DNA of 64,000 nt from Streptomyces sp. AA1529 (lineage in GTDB: Bacteria; Actinomycetota; Actinomycetes; Streptomycetales; Streptomycetaceae): positions 1-64,000 of the forward strand of contig NZ_ALAP01000063.1 of assembly GCF_000280905.1 (NCBI RefSeq). The letters are read 5' to 3'. Shown here in pieces: positions 3,420-44,800 of this stretch. The position numbers and the translations under genes were made by a program. Each line of letters begins with the position of its first letter. The stretch's first letter is position 1. The notes under the pieces are model-generated. The model made no database searches, was not told the origin of the DNA, and was given only the letters and a program-made list of their open reading frames with translations.

Positions 3420-5849
3420 ATGGTCACCTTTCGCCAGCTTCACGATCTTCGACTAGGGACCCTGAAGAAGGCAGTTGCCGACTGGAAGAAAATGGTCGAT
3501 GACCTGGTCGAACTGATTGGTGAAGACGGGAAAGCGCAAGGCACAAGCAGCACAGGACTCACGAGAAGGGCGCAGAAGGCAGACTGGGTGGGGGAAAATG
3601 CAGACGTGACAAAGAAATTCGTCACCAAAACGGCTGACGAGTTCCATGACGTGCTTGCAACAGCCCGGAGCGTGCACACGATTCTGGACGGGCTGCACAC
3701 CAAGATGAAGAAACACAAGGAAGACCTCAATGAGGTGGTCGCGAACGCGGACAAAGGAGTTCACATCACGCAGAACGGTACCGTGGAACCACGGAAAGAC
3801 GCCGATCCCAAGCCCACCCAGAAGCAGATCGACGCCGCCGCCGAAGAAATACATAAGGTCCTTAAAGCCGCAAAAATAACGGATAAGGGCGCTGCAGAAT
3901 CACTACGCCACGAAGCGAAGGACAAATACAACTTCCTCGCTTCGCGCGTCACCGATTTCGAAAAGACACGTCAGGCGGTCAGAGATGCGGATGCCGTACT
4001 CAAGCTAGCCAAAAAGGACCCCAGCGAACTCAGCAACACCCAGTTGAACCGTCTCGACGACTGGCTGCAACGTAGCGGGAAGGATCCTGTCTTCGCGGAA
4101 AGAGTCGCCACCGAGATGGGGCCGAAGAAGTCCCTTGCTTTCTTTGCCAAAGCCATGGATCTCGACAAATGGGAGTCCGACGGAGCGGGGAGCGGTCAGA
4201 GGAATTTCAGCGAGCACAAGAAAATGCTGGAAGTGCGGAAGAAGTTGCTGGGTCGACTCGAGACCGGACTGGGAACGACGTTGGCAACGGCCTCCCGATC
4301 CGAGTCCAGCGACATGGCGGCGTGGAAGAAACAGGCGATTCAGGTGGGAGATGAGCCGGTCTCAGGGACAGCTTCCCATAAGCCGATCTATGGGTTCCAG
4401 GCCATGAGTAACCTGATGCGGCACGGAAAGTACGACGGAGATTTTCTCAACAACTATGGCGATGCGCTCGTCGACTACGAGAAAAAGCATACAAGCGATG
4501 TGAAAGACCCTGGGCCAGGCGGTCGGACACGGGAAGATGTGCTGCCGTGGGACCGGCTGCCTTCCTACGCCCAGCAGGATGAGATGCGTTTCGGGCCGGG
4601 CAACGACGAGGATGCCGGGGTGGATCCGATGACTGGCCTCATGAAGGCCCTGTCACACAACCCCGAAGCCTCGACGGACTTCTTCGGTCATCCGGAAGAA
4701 GACAACGAGGGGGAACAGTCCCACTTCGACTACCTTTTCAAGGACCGCGAATGGGGCTCGCTTCCCGGATCTGCAGGCGGGAAGCCAGGGCGCGATGCGA
4801 TGGCCGAAGCTCTTGAGGCTGGGGCGACCGGCCACGTCGCAGGAGCGGAACCCGACTCGCTGGTCCACACCTCCGCCCAGGCACGAATCATGGAGGAAGT
4901 CGTCAAGGCCGTCTCGGACGAGCCATCCCGTCTCACCGGGAACCTGGAAATGGGCGACAGCTTGGGGCGGATGAGCCGTGAATATATGCCCGACATATAC
5001 CGGGGCCTGGAGAGCGGTGAACCGCCGAAACCAGAAATGGATGATCTACCGGAGACTCGGCGACATAACGTGCTCGAGCGACTTTTCCCTATTGCCGGGG
5101 AACCTGCGGTGTTCGGAAAATCTGGAGAGGGAGAGTCGGATTTGGCTAGATTCTTGATATCTCTCGGGCAGAGCCCGGAGGGCTACCAGGAAGTCCTCGC
5201 CGGGCAAAAACTCTACGGTGACGCAGTCCTGAAACACAATCTGGACCCCGAAATACAGGCACAACTTCCGCAGTATGAACGGTTCGAAGGATCCGAGACA
5301 GACGTCAAGGACCGGGCACAGGATGTTGTGGAGCGGGTCAGCCAGCAGTCAGGATACGTCACAGGCGCGTTGACGCTTGGCCGGCAAGAAGCCGTCGTGG
5401 CAGAGGGGCTCGCGCACGACGCCGCATACGAGAAGGCGCAGGCACGTGTAGGGACATGGGGCTACGGTGCGGGTGCCACAGCCACCAATGTGCTGTTGGC
5501 ACAGGGCGGGGTCAAACCTGTCGCAAGCGCGGTCATCTCAGGCTTGACAGGCTCCGGTCTCTTCGTCGGGCCGAGTGAGTGGAACATGGCCAACGACCAC
5601 AACGAGGGGGCAGAAAAGGCTCAATTGACCTCGGACTACTGGTCGCACGCCAAAGCAGACGACATCACCTCAACCAATAAGCTTTACAACAGCTACGGTG
5701 GCGAGGAGTTCGGTCCAGGCCAGTGGGATACATGGGTGCGTAACGGTTCGAACGCCGGGTTCAATGAGGCGCTGAGCTCGGGGCAGACGATGGCCACCGA
5801 GCTCACCAGTGGCGACCAGGTGAAGACCTTGAAGACGTCGGGGAAATAA
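3420..5849 (+). CDS. Large 809-aa protein with WXG-like N-terminal domain
   Basis: ATG at 3420 follows AGGGGAGAC. Residues 1-125 are two long helices flanking a WVG turn (W56-G58), the layout of WXG/LXG N-termini that mark type VII secretion clients or partners. Residues 130-260 are helical and Lys/Glu-rich. The middle (about 330-620) is acidic and globular and holds the repeated local motif F(G/L)..DRE(W). Near residues 675-715 is a Gly/Ala-rich hydrophobic stretch (GYGAGATATNVLLAQ and following) that could enter a membrane. No catalytic motif is recognised. It resembles large uncharacterised actinobacterial proteins found in several paralogous copies per genome. A/T-richer codon use matches both neighbours. 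The stop overlaps the next start (TAATG), so translation is coupled. Function unknown; secretion is an inference. Confidence 0.78.
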   Translation: MVTFRQLHDLRLGTLKKAVADWKKMVDDLVELIGEDGKAQGTSSTGLTRRAQKADWVGENADVTKKFVTKTADEFHDVLATARSVHTILDGLHTKMKKHKEDLNEVVANADKGVHITQNGTVEPRKDADPKPTQKQIDAAAEEIHKVLKAAKITDKGAAESLRHEAKDKYNFLASRVTDFEKTRQAVRDADAVLKLAKKDPSELSNTQLNRLDDWLQRSGKDPVFAERVATEMGPKKSLAFFAKAMDLDKWESDGAGSGQRNFSEHKKMLEVRKKLLGRLETGLGTTLATASRSESSDMAAWKKQAIQVGDEPVSGTASHKPIYGFQAMSNLMRHGKYDGDFLNNYGDALVDYEKKHTSDVKDPGPGGRTREDVLPWDRLPSYAQQDEMRFGPGNDEDAGVDPMTGLMKALSHNPEASTDFFGHPEEDNEGEQSHFDYLFKDREWGSLPGSAGGKPGRDAMAEALEAGATGHVAGAEPDSLVHTSAQARIMEEVVKAVSDEPSRLTGNLEMGDSLGRMSREYMPDIYRGLESGEPPKPEMDDLPETRRHNVLERLFPIAGEPAVFGKSGEGESDLARFLISLGQSPEGYQEVLAGQKLYGDAVLKHNLDPEIQAQLPQYERFEGSETDVKDRAQDVVERVSQQSGYVTGALTLGRQEAVVAEGLAHDAAYEKAQARVGTWGYGAGATATNVLLAQGGVKPVASAVISGLTGSGLFVGPSEWNMANDHNEGAEKAQLTSDYWSHAKADDITSTNKLYNSYGGEEFGPGQWDTWVRNGSNAGFNEALSSGQTMATELTSGDQVKTLKTSGK

Positions 5850-35466: not shown

Positions 35467-35517
35467 ATGGGTGATCCGGGTGTCGAGGTGCGCCCCGCCG
35501 GGCCGGCCGCCGGGTGA
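35467..35517 (+). CDS. 16-codon upstream ORF coupled to the P-type ATPase
   Basis: ATG 35467 follows GGGAGGCGGG and encodes MGDPGVEVRPAGPAAG, ending in TGA that overlaps the ATPase GTG (GTGA at 35514-35517). The ATPase start itself has no purine-rich ribosome-binding site, so ribosomes may arrive from this ORF. It could be a leader peptide or simply a coupling device. Confidence 0.45.
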   Translation: MGDPGVEVRPAGPAAG

Positions 35518-37982
35518 GCGCCCGGGTCCGTGCGCAGGGGCTCACCGGCGCCGAGGTGGCGGAACGGACCGCGCGCGGGGAGGTCAACGACGTCCCGCCG
35601 CGCAACAGCAGGTCGGCGGCCGACATCGTGCGCGCCAACGTCTTCACCCGGTTCAACGCGATCATCGGCGTGCTCTTCCTGATCATCCTGGCCGTGGGGC
35701 CGATCCAGGACAGCCTCTTCGGCTTCGTGATCATCGCCAACACCGGCATCGGCATCGTCCAGGAACTGCGGGCCAAGCGGACCCTGGAGAGTCTGGCCGT
35801 CCTCGGTGAGACCCGGCCCCGCGTGCGGCGCGACGGCCGCAGCACCGAGGTCCCCACCGAGCGGATCGTCCTCGGCGACCTGGTGGAGCTGCGGACCGGC
35901 GACAAGTGCGTGGTCGACGGCGAGCTCGCGGAGGCGGACGGCCTGGAGGTGGACGAGTCGCTGCTCACCGGGGAGGCCGACCCGGTGCTCAAACACCCCG
36001 GCGACCCGGTGATGTCCGGCAGTTTCGTGGTGGCGGGCAGCGGCGCCTTCACCGCGACCCGGGTGGGAGGCGCGGCGTACGCGGCCCGGCTCGCCGAGGA
36101 GGCCAGCCGCTTCACCCTCGTCCGCTCCGAACTGCGCGGCGGCATCAGCACCCTGCTGAAGTACATCACCTGGATGATGGTCCCGGCCGCCATCGGACTG
36201 ATCCTCAGTCAGCTCGTGGTCGAGCACAGCGACCCCGCGGAAGCCGTCCGCCGCATGGTGGCCGGCATCGTGCCGATGGTCCCCGAGGGGCTGGTGCTGC
36301 TGACCTCCGTGGCCTTCGCCATCGGCGTCGTCCGGCTGGGCCGCAAGCACTGCCTGGTCCAGGAGCTGCCCGCCATCGAGGGCCTGGCGCGGGTGAGCGT
36401 CGTCTGCCTGGACAAGACCGGCACCCTCACCGAGGGCGGCATGGACGTCGCGGACGTGCGGCCGCTGGACGGGACCGACCCGGCACGGATCGCCCAGGTG
36501 CTGCGGGCCCTCGGCGGCGCCGAACCGCATCCGAACGCCAGCCTCCGGGCGATCGTCGAGGCGTATCCGCCGCCGCCGGAGGGCGCCGGAAGCTGGCGGA
36601 CCACCGCCACCCTGCCCTTCTCCTCGGCACGCAAGTACAGCGGCGCCGCCTTCGCCGAGCCCGGCGGGGAGCACAGCACCTGGCTGCTGGGGGCACCCGA
36701 CGTACTGCTCGCGGACGGCGACGGGGCACTCGCCGAGGCGGCCCGGCTGGACCGCGAGGGCCTGCGGGTGCTGCTGCTGGCCCGGGCAGCCGACCAACCG
36801 GACGGGCTGTACGGGCCGGACGGGCCCGCACCACCGAACGGCTCAGAAGGCCCGGAAGGCGCGGAGCGCCGGAACGGCCCGAGGGCGCCCGGCGGGCTGG
36901 AGGCGGCGGACGGGGGGCCGCCCGAAGCCCGGCCCGCCGCGCTCGTCGTCCTCGAACAGCGGCTGCGCCCGGACGCCACCGAGACCCTCGGCTACTTCGC
37001 CCAGCAGCACGTGGCCACCAAGGTGATCTCCGGCGACAACGCGGTCTCGGTGGGCGCCGTCGCCGCGAAGCTGGGCCTGCCCGGAGCCGAACTCCCCCTC
37101 GACGCCCGCGCGCTGCCCGCGGACCGGCCCGAGCGGGCCCGGCAGGTGGCCGACGGCACCGTCTTCGGCCGCGTCAGCCCGCAGCAGAAGCAGGAGATGG
37201 TCGGCGACCTCCAGGCGGCCGGGCACACCGTGGCGATGACCGGGGACGGCGTCAACGACGTACTCGCGCTCAAGGACGCCGACATCGGCGTGTGCATGGG
37301 CTCGGGCTCGGAGGCGACCAAGGCCGTCGCCCAGATCGTGCTGCTGGACGACAGCTTCGCCACCCTGCCGTCGGTGGTCGCCGAGGGCCGCCGGGTCATC
37401 GGCAACATCGAGCGGGTCGCCACCCTGTTCCTCACCAAGACCGTCTACTCGGTCCTGCTGGCGCTGCTGGTCGTCAGCTGGCAGGTCCCCTACCCGTTCC
37501 TGCCCCGCCATCTGACCCTGCTGTCCTCGCTCACCATCGGCATCCCCGCCTTCTTCCTGGCGCTGGCGCCCAACCGGGAGCGGGCCAGACCGCACTTCGT
37601 GCGGCGCGTGCTGCACTACGCGCTGCCGTCCGGACTCATCGCGAGCGCGGCCACCTTCGGCACCTATCTGCTGGCACGGCACCACTACAGCGGGCCCGGC
37701 TCGCTCACCGCCGAGACCAGCGCGGCGACCCTGACGCTGTTCCTGGTCGCCATGTGGGTGCTGGCCATCGTGGCGCGGCCCTGGACCTGGTGGCGGGTGG
37801 CGCTCGTGCTGACGATGGGGGCGGCCTTCCTGACCGTCCTGGCCGCACCACCCCTCCAGCACTTCTTCGCACTGAACCTGGTCGGCGCGGCGGTGCCCTG
37901 GACGGCGGTGGCGGTGGCCGGGGTGGCGGGCCTCCTCCTGGAGGTGGCGTGGCGCCGGGTGGCCGCGGCGCTCCCCGGCTGA
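35514..37982 (+). CDS. P-type cation-transport ATPase of the PEGL type
   Basis: 822 aa, GTG start overlapping the upstream ORF stop. Phosphorylation motif DKTGTLT (Asp300), actuator motif LTGEADP, hinge MTGDGVNDVLALKDADIG, and TM4 motif VPEGLVLL (PEGL rather than PEGA or CPC). The PEGL group is typified by Mycobacterium CtpE, linked to calcium uptake and cell-surface integrity. About ten TM helices are visible. A Gly/Pro/Ala low-complexity insert in the nucleotide-binding domain (about 425-475) is not usual. Possible calcium or magnesium-type importer; ion specificity is inferred. Confidence 0.9.
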   Translation: MSARVRAQGLTGAEVAERTARGEVNDVPPRNSRSAADIVRANVFTRFNAIIGVLFLIILAVGPIQDSLFGFVIIANTGIGIVQELRAKRTLESLAVLGETRPRVRRDGRSTEVPTERIVLGDLVELRTGDKCVVDGELAEADGLEVDESLLTGEADPVLKHPGDPVMSGSFVVAGSGAFTATRVGGAAYAARLAEEASRFTLVRSELRGGISTLLKYITWMMVPAAIGLILSQLVVEHSDPAEAVRRMVAGIVPMVPEGLVLLTSVAFAIGVVRLGRKHCLVQELPAIEGLARVSVVCLDKTGTLTEGGMDVADVRPLDGTDPARIAQVLRALGGAEPHPNASLRAIVEAYPPPPEGAGSWRTTATLPFSSARKYSGAAFAEPGGEHSTWLLGAPDVLLADGDGALAEAARLDREGLRVLLLARAADQPDGLYGPDGPAPPNGSEGPEGAERRNGPRAPGGLEAADGGPPEARPAALVVLEQRLRPDATETLGYFAQQHVATKVISGDNAVSVGAVAAKLGLPGAELPLDARALPADRPERARQVADGTVFGRVSPQQKQEMVGDLQAAGHTVAMTGDGVNDVLALKDADIGVCMGSGSEATKAVAQIVLLDDSFATLPSVVAEGRRVIGNIERVATLFLTKTVYSVLLALLVVSWQVPYPFLPRHLTLLSSLTIGIPAFFLALAPNRERARPHFVRRVLHYALPSGLIASAATFGTYLLARHHYSGPGSLTAETSAATLTLFLVAMWVLAIVARPWTWWRVALVLTMGAAFLTVLAAPPLQHFFALNLVGAAVPWTAVAVAGVAGLLLEVAWRRVAAALPG

Positions 37983-38016
37983 GGAGCATCGGGACGAAAT
38001 CCGGTGCCGGGAGAGC

Positions 38017-38037
38017 GTCTGACCAGTGTTCAGACGG
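38017..38037. terminator. Small hairpin between P-type ATPase and SDR genes
   Basis: CGTCTGA, 7-nt loop, TCAGACG. Lies 35 nt after the ATPase stop and about 75 nt beyond the SDR stop. Moderate 7-bp stem, so only a tentative terminator. Confidence 0.4.
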
Positions 38038-38112
38038 ATACCAGTGGCATGCCCGTGTCGATTCGGGGCCGGCTCCTGATCTCAGTGCGGCGTGGCCTTG
38101 CCCGTCGGCCGG

Positions 38113-38862
38113 TCACTTCGCCTGGGAGAGCGAAACCGCGTCGGGGCCGGCGGGGAATCGCAGCTGGCCGGTCGTGTCGTGCACGGCTCGCCACACCGTC
38201 TCGGCGACGTCGCTCTCCTTGGTGAAGAGATCCTGGCCCGTGAAGTCGCCCATGGCCTTCTCCGCCCATGGTACGTAGGGCGCCGGGACCAACTCGTCCA
38301 GCGAGGCGCCCTTCGTCGCGTTGGCCGCGAAGTTCGTCGTCAGGCAGGCACCCGGCTGGACCGTCTTGGCCTGCACGCCGAAGGGCGCGAGTTCGAGCGC
38401 GAGGGAGGCGGTGAACCCCTCGATGGCCATTTTGCTGGCCTTGTAGACGGCCGAGAGCGGCATGTGGCCCAGCACCACGCTGGAGGTCACGTTGACCACC
38501 ACGCCGGAGCCCCGCTCGCGGAACTGGGGCAGCACCGCCTGCGTCGTCGCCAGCACGCCGAATGTGTTGGTTTCGAGGACTTCCCGCACTCGGGCCATGG
38601 GGGTGCCTTCGAACACGCCGATCGACGGCACCCCCGCGTTGTTGACCAGGACATCGACGGGGCCCGCCGCCTCGAACGCGGCGGTGATGCTTTCGGGCTC
38701 GGTGACGTCGAGCCCGACGACGCGGAGCCGGTCCGACTCGGGGAGGACTTCCGGACGCGGTGTCCGCATCGTGGCGATGACGTTCCATCCCTGCGCGTGG
38801 AAGTGGCGGGCGGTCTCCCGGCCGTAGCCGGAGGAGGTACCGGTGATCAGAACGGTCTTCAT
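38113..38862 (-). CDS. Short-chain dehydrogenase/reductase
   Basis: 249 aa from ATG 38862 (MKTVLITGTSSGYGRETA; GAAGGGG precedes). Classical SDR: TGxxxGxG nucleotide loop, NNAG at about residue 80, and catalytic Ser-Tyr-Lys in SSVVLGHMPLSAVYKASK. NADPH-type acidic/basic pattern is not decisive. Probable reductase of aldehydes or ketones. It lies 71 nt downstream of the first copy of a 64-bp element also found before the alpha/beta hydrolase gene, so both are likely under the AraC regulator encoded between them. Confidence 0.92.
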   Translation of the reverse strand: MKTVLITGTSSGYGRETARHFHAQGWNVIATMRTPRPEVLPESDRLRVVGLDVTEPESITAAFEAAGPVDVLVNNAGVPSIGVFEGTPMARVREVLETNTFGVLATTQAVLPQFRERGSGVVVNVTSSVVLGHMPLSAVYKASKMAIEGFTASLALELAPFGVQAKTVQPGACLTTNFAANATKGASLDELVPAPYVPWAEKAMGDFTGQDLFTKESDVAETVWRAVHDTTGQLRFPAGPDAVSLSQAK

Positions 38863-38933
38863 GGTCTGCCCCTTCTGCGATGGGATCCACCCGGACGGAC
38901 AGGCATTTTCCTGCCTCACCGGAGAACCAGTAG

Positions 38934-38997
38934 TTCCATTGAACCGCTTTGACCTGCGAAGACAGTAGAATTATCCTCGCCACTTCTTGCACGATCC
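38934..38997 (-). promoter_or_regulatory. 64-bp AraC-linked box, copy 1 (upstream of SDR)
   Basis: Read on the minus strand it starts GGATCGTGCAAG, contains TTCGCAGGTCA and ends AATGGAA. It matches the plus-strand copy at 39970-40033 at 49 of 64 positions, with the three blocks fully conserved (12, 11 and 7 nt) and divergent bases between them. Ends 71 nt before the SDR start. Likely holds the AraC-type activator sites plus the core promoter. Confidence 0.72.
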
Positions 38998-39017
38998 TCC
39001 CATTCGCTCTGTCCGGC

Positions 39018-39923
39018 TCACGGCATGACACCGGTCGGCACCTGCCCGGCCTGACGCAGGCGGACGGCGTCCTGACTGGGGGGCGCGCCGAACTGGCGGC
39101 GGTACTCCCGGCTGAACTGGGACAGGCTGTCGTAGCCGACGCGGAGGCCGACCCCGGTGACGTCCCCGGGACGGGTGGCGAGCAGCAGCCGGGCCTCCTG
39201 GAGCCGGATCTGCTTCTGGAACCGGATGGGACTCATCGCGGTCACCGCTTGGAAGTTGCGGTAGAAGGCGGAGACGCTCATGCCGGACTGCCGCGCCACG
39301 TCCTCGACGCGGAAGGGCTGCGCGTAGTGCTCACGGATCCAGCGCACGGCCCGCGAGACGTGGCTGAGGCTGCTGTCGGCCAAGCCGAGCTGGCGCACCG
39401 TCGCCCCCTGCTCGCCGGTGATCAGCCGCCAAAGGATCTCGCGCTTGACCAGCGGGGCCAGCACGGCCCGGTCACGGGGCTCGTCGAGCAGACGCAGCAA
39501 CCGGACCACCGCGTCCAGCAGTGCGGCCGGGGCGTCGCTGACGGCGATCCCCGACGGCGCGCCCCCGCCGCGGCGGGGGGCGTCCCCGTGCCCGGCCTCC
39601 AGCAGCAGCTCGGCGATGGCGGACGGTTCCAGGACGAGGCCGAAACCCAGCGCCGGCCGCTCGGGGTCGGCCTGGAGGAACTGCCCCGTGACAGGCAGGT
39701 CGACCGATGCGACCAGGTACTGCCCGGCGCCGTACGTGTAGACCCGGTCGCCCAGCGCGAGGCGTTTGGCGCCCTGGGCGATGACCGCGAGCACCGTGCC
39801 GGACATCGAGGGCGCCGGCGGATCCGGCCGGTCGACCTTGGAGATGAGGACGCCGTCGATGGCGGTGGTCCAGTCGGGCCGGACATGTCGGGCCAGCAAG
39901 GTGCGGAGCTCTTCGAGGTGCAT
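39018..39923 (-). CDS. AraC-family activator (AraC_N type, YqhC-like)
   Basis: 301 aa from ATG 39923. The N-terminal half is an AraC_N cupin (SKVDRPDPPAPSMSGTVLAVIAQGAKRLALGDRVYTYGAGQYLV), the sensor type of E. coli YqhC, which controls aldehyde reductases; the C-terminal half has both HTHs (FRVEDVARQSGMSVSAFYR and DVTGVGLRVGYDSLSQFSRE). It is flanked by two copies of a 64-bp element, one ahead of each neighbouring enzyme gene, which makes a shared regulon very likely. Confidence 0.9.
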   Translation of the reverse strand: MHLEELRTLLARHVRPDWTTAIDGVLISKVDRPDPPAPSMSGTVLAVIAQGAKRLALGDRVYTYGAGQYLVASVDLPVTGQFLQADPERPALGFGLVLEPSAIAELLLEAGHGDAPRRGGGAPSGIAVSDAPAALLDAVVRLLRLLDEPRDRAVLAPLVKREILWRLITGEQGATVRQLGLADSSLSHVSRAVRWIREHYAQPFRVEDVARQSGMSVSAFYRNFQAVTAMSPIRFQKQIRLQEARLLLATRPGDVTGVGLRVGYDSLSQFSREYRRQFGAPPSQDAVRLRQAGQVPTGVMP

Positions 39924-39969
39924 GCCTCCATTGCAGCACCGCCCTGGGCTGCGACTCCCGTCCTCACGA

Positions 39970-40033
39970 GGATCGTGCAAGTACCAGCGAGCATCGGTCT
40001 AACATTTTCGCAGGTCACAGCGTTTGAATGGAA
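39970..40033 (+). promoter_or_regulatory. 64-bp AraC-linked box, copy 2 (upstream of hydrolase)
   Basis: Plus-strand copy: GGATCGTGCAAG, TTCGCAGGTCA and AATGGAA in the same order and spacing as copy 1. It ends 34 nt before a 25-codon ORF (40068) and 205 nt before the hydrolase ATG. It also overlaps the promoter region of the AraC gene, so autoregulation is possible. Confidence 0.72.
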
Positions 40034-40067
40034 ACAGTTCACTCCATCGACGCGGACGAGAGACGCC

Positions 40068-40145
40068 ATGATTGCCACATACGGCTTCACCGCCGCCCGG
40101 ACCGCCCGGCCCGGAACGGCCGACCGCGGCAAAGCCGCCTGCTGA
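40068..40145 (+). CDS. 25-codon ORF between AraC box and hydrolase
   Basis: ATG 40068, preceded by GACGAGAGACGCC, encodes MIATYGFTAARTARPGTADRG plus a few residues and ends in TGA. It is the first start downstream of box copy 2. The N-terminus resembles the beginning of a dehydrogenase, so it may be a gene remnant, or a leader peptide. No independent evidence that it is made. Confidence 0.3.
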   Translation: MIATYGFTAARTARPGTADRGKAAC

Positions 40146-40238
40146 CCGCCCCCGCACCGCGGCCTCTGCCGCTCCGGTGCCCGCCGAGGCGGCCCCGGGC
40201 CCACCGCTCCGCCACACCACCCACGAAAGGCGACGACC

Positions 40239-41207
40239 ATGACCGCAACGCGCCCCGCCCTCGACCCCGAACTGCGGGAACTCCTGGCCGGCACGCCGCT
40301 GATGTCCCAGCTCGGCCCGGAACTGCTGGCGCGGATACGCCCCTGCTCCTCGGCGCCCGTCGAGCCGCTGCTCGAAGGCCGCGCGATCGACCGGCGCGAG
40401 GTCACCGCCGCGAGCCCGGACGGCACCCCGATCCCGATGTCCGTCTTCAGCCCCGCGAACACCGCTCGCACCACCGCCGCGCCCTGCTTCTACTGGATGC
40501 ACGGCGGCGGGATGGTCATGGGCGACCGCTTCTCACAGCTCGACATCCCGCTGGAGTGGCTCGACGAGTTCGGCGCCGTCGTGGTCTCCGTCGACTACCG
40601 GCTCGCGCCCGAGGCCACCGGCACCATCCCGGTCGACGACTGCTACCGGGGACTGCTCTGGATCGCCGAACACTCCGAAGAACTGGGCATCGACCCCGCC
40701 CGGATCATCGTCGCAGGCGCCAGCGCGGGCGGCGGACTCGCCGCCGGCGTCACCCTGCTGGCCCGGGACCTCGGCACCCCGGCGATCGCCGCCCAAGTCC
40801 TGATCGGCCCCATGCTCGACCACCGCAACGCCACCACCTCCAGTCTCCAGTACTCGAACGGGCCCGGCGTCTGGACCCGCGAGATGAACGGATTCGGATG
40901 GCGCTGCCTCCTCGGCGACCGCACCGGGGACGAGGTACCCGCACACGTCTCACCAGCAGTGGCCGACGACCTCGCGGGCCTGCCGACCACCTACATCGAC
41001 ACCGGCTCCGCCGAAGTCTTCCGGGACGAGGACGCCGACTACGCCACCCGCATCTGGGCGGCGGGCGGCCAGGCCGAACTCCACGTCTGGGCAGGCGGCT
41101 TCCACGGATTCGACGCCCTGTACCCGCAGGCACACCTCTCGGCCACAGCCCGCCGGACCCGCACCGACTGGCTCGCCCGACTCCTGGCCACGAACCCCGC
41201 CGCATAG
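40239..41207 (+). CDS. Alpha/beta hydrolase of the hormone-sensitive-lipase family
   Basis: 322 aa. Oxyanion motif HGGG (WMHGGGMVMGD), nucleophile Ser in GASAGGG, catalytic Asp in the DEDADY/GSAEVF segment and His in GGFHGFD. The N-terminal cap (residues 1-70) is typical of HSL-type esterases, which cleave short acyl or aryl esters. Upstream box copy 2 links it to the AraC gene and to the SDR. Confidence 0.93.
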   Translation: MTATRPALDPELRELLAGTPLMSQLGPELLARIRPCSSAPVEPLLEGRAIDRREVTAASPDGTPIPMSVFSPANTARTTAAPCFYWMHGGGMVMGDRFSQLDIPLEWLDEFGAVVVSVDYRLAPEATGTIPVDDCYRGLLWIAEHSEELGIDPARIIVAGASAGGGLAAGVTLLARDLGTPAIAAQVLIGPMLDHRNATTSSLQYSNGPGVWTREMNGFGWRCLLGDRTGDEVPAHVSPAVADDLAGLPTTYIDTGSAEVFRDEDADYATRIWAAGGQAELHVWAGGFHGFDALYPQAHLSATARRTRTDWLARLLATNPAA

Positions 41208-41442
41208 GCGAAGTCGACGCGTTCCGGTCGTACGCTTCAGCTGCGGCCAAGACCTCGGCGTCCGTCGTCCCCGGGCGCGAGCGGGACCGCGACCTCGGCC
41301 CTCGCCTCCGCCGAGGGGCGGAAGCAGGGCCGTAGGTTCTCCCGCAGCTCTCCCCCGGCCCCCGCGGCCCTCCCGCCCCGGCCCGGCGCGGACGCCCCGG
41401 GCCGTCCCACGCCGCGGCCCCGGATTCGGGACGGGCGCCCGC

Positions 41443-41477
41443 GCCGCGCCCGCGGGTTCAGGCCGGGCGGGCGCGGC
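41443..41477. terminator. 11-bp perfect hairpin between hydrolase and zinc-protein genes
   Basis: GCCGCGCCCGC and its complement around a 13-nt loop. It begins 13 nt after the stop of the minus-strand zinc protein and is the strongest structure in the 282-bp convergent spacer. Confidence 0.6.
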
Positions 41478-41489
41478 ACGCCACCGGGC

Positions 41490-41726
41490 TCACGGCGCGC
41501 TGTCGGCCAGCTCGGTGCGCCCCTGCGCACGGGCGCAGTGCGCACAGCAGTAGTAGTGCCCCTCCGACTCCATGCCGTGGCCCAGGATGCGGCAGCCGCA
41601 GTTCTCGCACACGGGCGCCATCTTGTGCGCCGCGCACTCCAGGCAGTCGAAGACGTGCACCTGCCCCGCCGCACGGACTTCGAACGTGTGCGGGTAGTCG
41701 TTGTCGCAGACCTCGCAGACGGGCAT
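41490..41726 (-). CDS. Cys-rich zinc-ribbon protein
   Basis: 78 aa from ATG 41726, preceded by AAGGAGA. Ten cysteines: CxxC at 4/7, CxxC at 28/31, CxxCxC at 40/43/45 and CCxxC at 60/61/64, plus His residues at 24, 34, 50, 57 and 63. The pattern (VCEVCDND and VCENCGCRILGHG then YYCCAHCA) resembles the prokaryotic-metallothionein-like zinc-binding family; I cannot confirm the family. Likely stores or senses Zn or forms a nucleic-acid-binding zinc fold. Convergent with the hydrolase gene. Confidence 0.75.
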   Translation of the reverse strand: MPVCEVCDNDYPHTFEVRAAGQVHVFDCLECAAHKMAPVCENCGCRILGHGMESEGHYYCCAHCARAQGRTELADSAP

Positions 41727-41843
41727 GGGCTCTCCTTGGATCGGGTGCGGAAGCGAGCACATCGTTACCCCGCGAACCGCACCCCGGACCCCGTCTCAGT
41801 CGGCCGGGCGCACCCGTTGGAGGGGCGCACCGCACCACGGCCG

Positions 41844-41878
41844 CGGCTGCCGGGGGCCCGCGGCCCGTCCGGCAGCCG
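41844..41878 (-). terminator. 10-bp hairpin after the sacsin-like gene
   Basis: CGGCTGCCGG and CCGGCAGCCG around a 15-nt loop, 9 nt after the stop of the minus-strand 1062-aa gene. Confidence 0.6.
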
Positions 41879-41887
41879 GCGCGGTGC

Positions 41888-44800
41888 TCAGTCGAACCAG
41901 CGGGCCGCCGCCAGTTCCGCCGCCCGCTCGGGGTCCTCCAGCAGGGCGGTGACCTCGAACCGGCGCGGCCAGGCCCCGGCCGCCCAGGCCAGCGCGGAGG
42001 CCAGCCCCTCCAGGGTGGCGGCGTGCAGGGTGCCGTCGGGGGTGCGGCGCCAGTCCAGTTCGACACCCGCGATCCGCAGCTCCTCGTGCTCCCGGTAGTA
42101 CGCCGGGACGCCGGGCAGCAGCTCCCGTACGGCGGCGGGCACCTCGCGCTCGGTCCCCGCCTCCTCGGGCACCAGCCCGGCGGCCGCCTCCCCCGCCGGG
42201 CGCACCTCCAGCAGCGCGGCCAGCTCCGCGGCGTACCGCGGCGCCACCGGCAGCAGCGGCCGCTCCCCCACCAGGGGAAGGGCGTCGGGCGCGTCCGCGA
42301 CCAGCGCCTCGGCGGCGTCCACGACGACGGTGCCGCCCGCGCGCACCGCACGCAGCTCCTCCGGCAGCGTGACCTCGGCGGGGTCCAGGCCCGCGGCGGC
42401 CAGCAGAGTGTGCAGCCCGTGGAGTTGGGCCGGGTCGACGGGGCGGTCCGGGTCGGCCAGCCCGCGCAGCAGCTCCGCCGGGCCGCCCGGCTCCGCGAGC
42501 AGAGCGGCGGCCGTCGTACGGACGCCGAGCGCGCGCAGCACCCGCTCGTCGGTGACCTCCCCGGGGTCGGCCTCCTCGTACAGGCCGCGCAGCAGTGGAT
42601 CGCCCCCGGCAGCGCGCAGCCCGGCCGGTCGGCGGCCGTCCAGGACCGGGTGGCCGCGCAGCCACCAGGCGGTGTACGGGCGGACGTCGGTGACCGTGCC
42701 GTCGCCCAGCCGCACCCGCACCGGGGCGGTCAGCGCGTCCCGCAGCGGCGGCCGGGCCAGCATCGCCAGGGCCTCGGGCCAGTGCGCGTCGTCCACCAGG
42801 TCCAGGTCGCGCACCGCGAGGAACTCGACCGCGACCGGCGGCACCGCCGACGCGGCGTCCCCGCCGTCCGCCGCCACCTGGTCCAGTACGTCCTCGCACC
42901 ACACGTCCACGGCGTCCAGCAGCCCGGGGTCGTCCGGCTCCGGGTAGTCGCCCTCACGCGGTTCGAAGCCGTCCGGGTCGAGCACCACGTCCTCGGCCCG
43001 CACCAGCGCGAAGTCCGCCTGGACCCCGACCGCCGTCAGCGGCTGCTCGCCCCAGCGTTCGGCCAGCTGCGCGTCGCACCCGGCCAGTTCGCCCGCGCGC
43101 AGCACCCGCGCGAAAGCGGAGCCGGGGTAGACCAGCTCGGCGGCGGGCGCGGGCTCGCCGTCCTCGTCGGGCAGCGCGAGCGCGCCCAGCCACGGCTCGT
43201 CGCCGGGCGCGAGATGTGCGTCGCGGACCAGGCCGAGGACGGTCTCGGCGAGTTCCTCGGGGTCGGGACCGGCGGCTTCCACTCCGTCGTCCCACGCCTC
43301 CTCCGCCTCCAGCGAGCCGGCGACGGCGGCCCGCACCTGCGGGGTCGTCAGCACGGCACGCGGAGTGGCGGGCGTGGCGCCCAGCTTCTCCAGCAGCGGG
43401 TGCACGGCGTCCGGGTGCGCGGCCTTCAGCCCGAGCCGGGCCAGCCGCTCGGGGGGCACGGCGCCGTCCGGCTGCGGCAGCAGCACATGCCGCGGCCCGA
43501 CCGCGGTGCGGCCGTCGGCCAGCGGCACCGGCAGCCCCGTCAGCCGCTCGGGGTCGACACCCGCGAGCGAGCTGTAGAGCCGCCACCACCAGTCCGGCTC
43601 CCGCTCGACACCGGTGAGCCGGTCCACGGCCTCGCCCAGCGGGACGCGCGGGACCTCCAGCACCCGCAGCTCGGTGCGGCGTTCGAGCCCGGCGGGCAGC
43701 AGTCCGGGGAACAGTTCGGCCAGCACCTCGACCGTCGCCGCGCCCGCGCCCTCGACGATCTCGGCGTCGCGGGGACGCAGCGCATACGGCTCGTCCGGGC
43801 CGGGAGCCTCCTCCAGCCCCTCCCCGGAGTCCTCGCCGACGCCGCGGGAGACGGCGCTCGCCAGGAACGAAACCTCCGGCAGCCGCTCCAGCACCAGCGC
43901 GCGCAGCTCACCGTCCAGCTCGCCCGCGCCCAGCGGCCCGGGCACCAGGTCCACGGTGCTGGTGGCCACCGGCCGCCAGTCGCGCAGCAGCGCGGCGTAG
44001 GCGTCGGCGGCGCGGGCCAGCAGAAAGCGGGTCAGCGGACCGGGCGCCACATGGCGCCGGGTGGGCTCCAGCGGGAAGGAGGCCAGCAGCAGCGCCGGGA
44101 AGCCCAGCGGCTCGTCGGTGGGGGTCGGCGCGTGCAGGCACGCGGCGGTACGCGGCTTGCGGGGCGCGCCCTCGGCGTCCACCGGCACCGCCCAGGTCAC
44201 CGTCCAGCCGGGCCGGGCCCGCTCCTCCACCGGCCGGTCGGCCAGCAGCTCGGGCCCGGCCAGGCCGCTGTCGCCCGCCAGCCGCCACCGGGTGGCGCCC
44301 GCGGCGGAGTCCTCGATCCGGACGTAGGGACCTTCCTGATGCCGGGTCAGGGTGCGGACCGGGCCGTCGCCGGTCTCGATGACGACTTCGGCGAGCCCGG
44401 GCAGCGCCAGCAGCAGCGCGTCGTCCACGGCGGCCAGCAGCCGCCGGGCCAGCGACTCGGCCGCCTCGTCCCGCAGCGGGAGCAGCACGGCGGTGTCGTA
44501 GCCCGCCGGGACGACGGAGGCGTCGTACGGCGCGGGGAGCGGCAGCCGCAGCAGTGGTACATGTCCCTCGCGCCGGTCGAGTTCGGCCGCGAGCCCGGGT
44601 TCGGCGGCGGCTGCCTGCCGGGTCAGCTCGCGGGCCTCGGCCAGCGACCAGCGCACGCCTTCGGCGGCGTCCGGCGCGGCTGCGGCGCGGGTGACCACCG
44701 CGGGTTCGTCGCTGACCGCGAGTACGGCGGAGAAACCGACGCCGAAGCGGCCCACCGCGCCCTCGTCGGCACCGTCCCGCTTGGCGGAGGCGCGCAGCGT

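Follow-up and report, generated by a model that had tools for sequence, protein, structure and literature searches.

Twin promoter-like boxes flanking an AraC_N regulator gene in Streptomyces sp. AA1529 and a predicted operator of the YqhC family

The locus described here raises the question of why a gene for an AraC-type regulator has closely similar sequences on both of its sides, each facing a different enzyme gene, and whether the regulator reads both. The window that we analyzed is a stretch of 64,000 nucleotides from Streptomyces sp. AA1529 (contig NZ_ALAP01000063.1). A first-pass annotation had aligned minus-strand positions 38997-38934 with plus-strand positions 39970-40033 by hand and counted 49 identities in 64 positions, and our recount returned the same 49/64. 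Extended by two bases, the two sequences, which we call box A (38934..38999, minus strand) and box B (39968..40033, plus strand), were identical at 51 of 66 positions. The pair is the longest inverted repeat within positions 36000-43000 of the window (66 nt, 77%). The best ungapped 64-mer match between both intergenic gaps was 49, in comparison to a mean of 29.2 and a maximum of 35 in dinucleotide shuffles of both gaps (1000 pairs). The three conserved blocks pointed out in the hand alignment are identical and in register between the two boxes.

The boxes and the genes around them

Pfam matches supported the gene identities assigned earlier, with the AraC gene lying between an SDR gene and an alpha/beta hydrolase gene and a box facing each. 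Box A is the predicted regulated promoter of the SDR-family oxidoreductase (adh_short) gene (38113..38862, minus strand), its proposed target, the product of which matched PF00106 at E=1.9e-43 and has TGTSSGYG and YKASK motifs. A P-type cation ATPase gene (E1-E2_ATPase, 35514-37982, plus strand) is convergent with the SDR gene and ends ~130 bp from the SDR stop, and no box was observed in the gap between these two genes in the scans made. Box B lies in the divergent gap upstream of the AraC gene and is the predicted regulated promoter of the unit that contains the alpha/beta hydrolase gene (40239..41207, plus strand). The hydrolase is of the hormone-sensitive-lipase type (PF07859, E=2.1e-51; HGGG and GASAG motifs), and its best NCBIfam match, LipP1, reached 177 bits, below the cut-off of 350.

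Between box B and the hydrolase gene there is a further feature that was absent from the first-pass annotation, a 25-codon in-frame remnant (40068..40145, plus strand) of an ABM-domain (antibiotic biosynthesis monooxygenase) gene, recognized by alignment to the relatives L040 and L052. A 240-nt deletion has left about the first 18 and the last 7 codons of the gene, joined in frame. Relatives have, after the hydrolase-side box, a 105-aa ABM gene and then the hydrolase gene; the intact ABM gene of L040 matched PF03992 at E=6.7e-9, and 62 of 80 relatives have an ABM gene of near full length. No ABM gene was detectable in four of the 64 loci with the hydrolase (the window, L078, L086, and L116). 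Judged from these alignments, box B originally faced an ABM (monooxygenase-like) gene. The ABM gene has been reduced to a remnant, and the esterase is therefore probably now the first functional gene of the box B unit. Of the regulon originally proposed, a reductase plus an esterase, the SDR on one side stands; on the other side the relatives have ABM plus esterase, with ABM broken here.

The gene between the boxes (39018..39923, minus strand) encodes an AraC_N transcription regulator, the proposed reader of both boxes, which matched PF06719 at 168.3 bits (cut-off 24.2). HTH_18 and HTH_AraC were both above cut-off at its C-terminus, as expected of an AraC_N member of the AraC/XylS family. No other PF06719 match was present in the genome. 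The regulator itself had weak matches (38 bits at best) at thirteen other AraC-like places, nearly all of them confined to the helix-turn-helix part, although one of the 13 spans residues 43-284. Cysteine-based sensing by the window regulator was ruled out, as it has no cysteines (among the 80 relatives 62 have none and 18 have one), and any sensing would therefore be by ligand binding or other residues. Some relatives have broken-looking AraC copies, with one in-frame stop each in G191 and G088 and two overlapping pieces in G122.

Each box is composed of a pair of 14-bp half-sites with a spacing of exactly 21 bp, followed by a GCAGGTCA block and a -10-like hexamer, TTNAAT. In box A, on the minus strand, the distal half-site GAGGATCGTGCAAG is at 38986..38999 and the proximal half-site GAGGATAATTCTAC, 21 bp from the distal one and overlapping the predicted -35, is at 38965..38978. 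The GCAGGTCA element (38950..38957) lies in the -35/-10 spacer, and the predicted -10, TTCAAT (38938..38943), is separated from the -35 register by 17 bp, a distance that E. coli yqhD also has. Box B, on the plus strand, has the distal half-site GAGGATCGTGCAAG (39968..39981), the proximal half-site GAGCATCGGTCTAA (39989..40002), the GCAGGTCA element (40010..40017), and a predicted -10, TTGAAT (40024..40029). Both distal half-sites were assigned from the sequence logo and the register, the proximal ones from autocorrelation and register (for box B from the logo also), the GCAGGTCA element of box B from the logo and its information content, and its -10 from the promoter register. The three blocks of the hand alignment correspond to the distal half-site, the element in the spacer, and the -10-like hexamer together with bases downstream of it; the proximal half-site is more divergent between the two boxes and for that reason was not among them.

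The logo comprises 120 unique sites from 78 of 81 related loci, chosen by four or fewer mismatches to TCGTGCAAG-N25-TTCGCAGGTCA. Its half-sites, GAGGATCGTGCAAG and GAGnATnGtTCTA, are exactly 21 bp apart and are followed by GCAGGTCA and TTNAATGG, and the top shift in column autocorrelation was 21 for either box type. On the hydrolase side and the SDR side, respectively, half-site 1 had 1.87 and 1.81 bits per column and GCAGGTCA had 1.80 and 1.78 (1.8 for the element in box A), but conservation of the picked columns, GCAGGTCA included, is inflated because sites were chosen by similarity to the first and third blocks. Free of this bias are half-site 2 (1.59/1.67), the -10-like columns (1.59/1.61), and the flanks. 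The linker between the half-sites had 0.67/0.50 bits, the seven columns after the -10-like hexamer 1.47/1.50, the following eleven (columns 64-74) 1.06/1.07, and the upstream nine 0.83/0.35. The GCAGGTCA element is absent from the aldo/keto-reductase boxes of L146 and L148, is degenerate in L039, and is shifted one base against the half-sites in L058, L085, L107, and L110; perhaps a second protein is its reader. A third half-site at +42 was ruled out, with just 4-5 matches in 14 positions, as was an opposite-strand promoter in the boxes, for which the -35/-10 spacing was not sensible when judged by eye.

Distribution of boxes, targets, and regulator

The conserved core had been offered as a motif for finding further targets, but scans of this genome returned only the two known boxes. 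Across 7.28 Mb (108 contigs), no box beyond these was found by three different scans, which used the shared positions from TCGTGCAAG to GGTCA with three or fewer mismatches, the half-site pair with three or fewer mismatches, and a sequence profile at E up to 10, in which the third match was 20 nt long with E 0.93.

Species genomes were scanned with the AraC protein, and the best 80 of 260 loci (85-91% identity), which came from Streptomyces, Kitasatospora, Actinacidiphila, Embleya, Nonomuraea, Actinomadura, Saccharothrix, Rhodococcus, and Prescottella, were analyzed along with the window as 81 loci. A box was called when, on the expected strand, a half-site pair differed at three or fewer of 18 positions (the best wrong-strand match had five mismatches), and an ABM or hydrolase orthologue was considered in place at 60% or higher identity over 40 residues. 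All 66 loci with ABM and/or hydrolase in place had a box on that side, as did 8 of the 15 without these genes. An SDR-side box was present in 58/58 loci with the SDR in place and in 4/23 without it there. Scoring by the half-site pair only, as in these counts, tolerates slip behind the pair and asks the SDR to lie in place; with a stricter matrix, boxes were found in 62/66 and 57/59 loci with the target. One locus, L102, was counted among those without ABM/hydrolase, but its contig stops 148 nt upstream. Fisher's tests gave 1.9e-6 for the ABM/hydrolase side and 5.8e-15 for the SDR side, although these values, like the hypergeometric and binomial ones below, are not true probabilities because the loci are related by descent or transfer.

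Several loci serve as natural experiments. The SDR gene of L109 is inverted and lies further off than usual (about 4040-4850, minus strand), and there is a box 30 nt before its frame. A different SDR is faced by the box in L069, L088, and L112, and in L053 and L072 the box faces a gene with a weak, below-cut-off methyltransferase match. These inversion and replaced-gene loci tie each box to the gene that it faces. This is a clean case of a promoter and an enzyme gene kept together, in that the box is present whenever the gene is and moves with it in the inversion, and it often faces another gene once the usual one is gone.

The regulator follows the boxes as well. In a sample of 200 family genomes, the AraC gene was called at E up to 1e-40 and the box by a sequence-only profile at E up to 0.001; some of the species scanned (e.g., L040/G063) had also supplied sites to the profile. 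The AraC gene was found in 41 of the 200 genomes and the box in 27, all 27 being among the 41 (hypergeometric 1.8e-23, for related loci). In the other 14 of the 41 no box was found at E 0.001, and for most of these the match to AraC is more distant or partial. Within 1 kb of an AraC_N gene lay 38 of the 40 listed box matches. One outlying match, in G030, is partial and weak (E 8.8e-4). The other, in G032 (L146 1500-1570), lies 163 nt before an aldo/keto reductase gene (PF00248, E 3.8e-73) on a contig other than that of the AraC gene, and no AraC gene was found within its 3-kb locus. That the AraC_N protein reads both boxes, as the first-pass annotation had suggested, is thus likely, given their co-occurrence with targets and regulator and the similar half-sites at distant AraC_N genes.

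The AraC protein is 85-90% identical to that of the window in five other genera, in comparison to 77.5-85.6% for RpoB over about 1030 residues (for Nonomuraea, one of two rpoB copies was compared). The regulator was more conserved than RpoB in 5/5 comparisons and its distribution is patchy (41/200), which points to transfer between genera, and the cassette therefore probably moves between them. One copy, alongside ABM, hydrolase, and SDR-family genes, is carried by a linear Streptomyces plasmid of 898 kb, and AraC copies at 80-90% identity were found in 8 plasmid records.

Promoter register and proposed regulation

The promoter of E. coli yqhD is described with a -35 of TTGAGA and a -10 of CACAAT (PMC6115493). 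The yqhD half-site pair GAGAAATAGGCAAG / CAGAAATGAGCATT overlaps that -35 by two bases and is followed by a 17-bp spacer to CACAAT, and Salmonella yqhD has the same register of TTGAGA, 17 bp, and CACAAT. Placed in the yqhD register, boxes A and B have -35 hexamers of ACTGTC and AACATT, respectively, a 17-bp spacer, and -10 hexamers of TTCAAT and TTGAAT. An exact actinobacterial pair had no match at E. coli yqhD (8-9 mismatches); a wide matrix built without E. coli ranks the -35-overlapping pair top there, while the strict actinobacterial matrix picks another 21-bp pair. The analogy to YqhC drawn at first therefore holds for the promoter register, which is that of the yqhD pair, but not for the targets, which are SDR, ABM, and esterase.

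The boxes have the layout of class II promoters, with direct-repeat half-sites ~21 bp apart and the proximal one over the -35, which was assigned by register. Their -35 hexamers match TTGACA poorly, and such a poor match would be expected only of promoters that need an activator. The shared half-site/-35/-10 register thus supports class II activation, with a weak -35 helped by the regulator. We consider it probable (roughly 0.82) that boxes A and B are copies of a single regulated promoter, both of them activated by the AraC_N protein, which would be a class II activator resembling YqhC.

We infer that the AraC_N protein binds and activates the boxes in the following way. It would bind the two 14-bp half-sites, which lie 21 bp, or two helical turns, apart on the same face. 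With an inducer present it would activate as a class II activator, the proximal half-site lying over the weak -35 and the -10 lying 17 bp further on. Box A would drive the SDR gene and box B the (here broken) ABM gene and the esterase, giving a closed local regulon of the YqhC type. Judged by the boxes, of which the three genome scans returned only these two, the regulon is local, and one target is an esterase. The enzymes (SDR, ABM, and esterase, with AKR elsewhere) and the YqhC and CmrA relatives suggest a response to electrophiles or esters; by analogy, the inducer may be an electrophile, such as an aldehyde or quinone, or an ester.

Other readings of the boxes have to be considered. A proximal half-site over the -35 register would also fit occlusion, that is, an AraC_N protein that is a repressor, or both repressor and activator, covering the -35 without inducer and leaving with it. 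We consider this unlikely: the weak -35 hexamers point to the need of an activator, and the homologue YqhC is described as an activator of yqhD (PMC6115493) and is named a transcriptional activator in the MG1655 record. The boxes might instead be read by another, unlinked factor with the AraC gene a mere neighbor, and the GCAGGTCA element, which is well conserved, lies outside the half-site repeat, and may be read by a second protein, gives this some ground. However, boxes were found only in genomes with the AraC_N gene (27/27), nearly all of the listed matches were under 1 kb from it, and half-sites of this kind are present at many distant AraC_N genes, so that such a factor seems very improbable.

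A recent duplication or a repeat element without regulatory function could also produce two similar boxes. The cassette has apparently been transferred between genera, so part of the conservation reflects recency, and columns 64-74, just downstream of the box, also keep ~1.1 bits. Against this, conservation is strong in half-site 2 and in the -10-like columns but not in the half-site linker, and the side-specific sequences of the two boxes are kept across relatives, so the boxes had separated before those lineages. A mere duplication is thus largely refuted, and we give it hardly any credence. Activation of both boxes by the AraC_N protein remains the reading that we prefer.

A predicted family-wide operator and known systems

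The half-site spacing was compared in 33 distant AraC_N loci, namely 24 plasmid records, E. coli yqhC, and 8 of the 10 loci of a PF06719 set (the window and the close relative G033 were left out). The plasmid loci came from 60 rows spread over 491 records, from which 25 were selected to give variety, H1 (an 88% relative) then being excluded; for loci without an annotated neighbor, about 250-300 bp before the regulator was used. With a matrix trained on the boxes of actinobacterial loci, spacings of 14-32 bp (19 in total) were compared. A spacing of 21 bp was the best of the 19 in 22/33 loci, and all 22 pairs face away from the regulator (binomial 8e-21 if the loci were independent, which they are not fully). 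E. coli is among the 22, with the matrix choosing a pair other than the one that overlaps the -35. These 22 loci are from Pseudomonadota, one Planctomycete (L181), and the phylum of the window (Actinomycetota). The other 11 were Devosia (AraC 71% identical), Burkholderia, Priestia (rank 4), Azotobacter (rank 2), Pantoea, R702, Pararhizobium (rank 2), Sinorhizobium americanum, Roseibium, Nostoc, and the actinobacterial L161; 21 bp was not ranked first in the single Bacillota and Cyanobacteriota loci. In control windows inside or behind genes, 21 bp was best in 10/165, with 8.7 expected; controls for L155, L157, L158, and L161 used unoriented starts, so that a few of these windows could coincide with real sites, an error that could only increase the count in the controls. 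Held-out loci gave 21 bp in 10/14 with either matrix. The recognition-helix stretches are also alike in the window protein and YqhC (MSVSAF and SQFSRE).

On this evidence from sequences, it is fairly probable that the AraC_N (YqhC) family reads one operator across phyla, with half-sites near GCAGGATYRKGCAAG that have a spacing of exactly 21 bp and face the divergent neighbor, the proximal half-site lying on the -35. If so, sequence would suffice to predict the regulons of uncharacterised AraC_N regulators, and the operator of yqhD would turn out to be a 21-bp direct repeat and not the published palindrome or SoxS-like site. A hand-made alignment would then have led to a testable, predictive operator for a widespread regulator family. 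Among the open-licence PMC matches listed, none describes the motif or a common AraC_N operator in its title or the start of its abstract, and neither was present in the available text of PMC13052891, PMC8262776, or PMC9723621.

The yqhD control region is published as a SoxS-like sequence and a 24-bp palindrome, and YqhC responds to aldehydes and is in use as an aldehyde biosensor (PMC6115493). By genomic SELEX, YqhC has a single binding site, in the yqhC/yqhD spacer (PMC8249747). As in the window, the E. coli system of YqhC and yqhD-dkgA has an AraC-type regulator adjoining oxidoreductase genes, and the window protein shares 35% identity with the regulator encoded next to yqhD in Salmonella. 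Unlike the window, with its two flanking promoters, YqhC and yqhD have one divergent promoter. YqhC targets aldehyde reductases, whereas the proposed targets here are SDR, ABM, and esterase; lacking yqhD-dkgA targets, the window regulator does not qualify as a YqhC orthologue. YqhC also has 6 cysteines and the window regulator none. In the layout of its half-sites the window resembles araBAD, where AraC at I1-I2 has direct-repeat half-sites ~21 bp apart with the proximal one over the -35; that AraC has another N-terminal domain and another half-site sequence.

A second comparison is offered by CmrA of P. aeruginosa, an AraC-type regulator adjacent to PA2048 that is not known to have twin boxes or SDR/esterase targets. 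CmrA controls PA2048, a putative quinol monooxygenase, in an electrophile response (PMC10269722 and PMC11762671). By description this monooxygenase-like target resembles the ABM gene of the window's relatives; unlike the window system, CmrA acts on MexEF-OprN expression.

The plasmid AraC_N regulators of other phyla are often divergent from an oxidoreductase gene, which is an SDR gene in L164, L170, L173, L176, L179, and L183 (with an ABM gene following in L173), a flavin oxidoreductase gene in L172, and yqhD in L186. Elsewhere the neighbor is an MFS transporter (L180 and L184), a VOC protein (L171), a 2Fe-2S protein (L166), or limonene epoxide hydrolase (L178), and many of these loci have 21-bp pairs; L165, L167, L174, L175, L177, L182, and L185 were without usable annotation in this survey. 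In L172 (plasmid R702, IncP) the AraC_N regulator, flavin oxidoreductase, and an aldo/keto reductase lie beside tetracycline resistance genes. L186 (NZ_LN868944.1), a 728-kb Salmonella plasmid record, has metC, yghB, the AraC regulator, and yqhD arranged as they are on the chromosome of E. coli and may be mislabelled. Set beside these systems, the two-promoter local regulon of the window is well supported but of an ordinary, familiar kind, and the likely family-wide operator code is the notable part.
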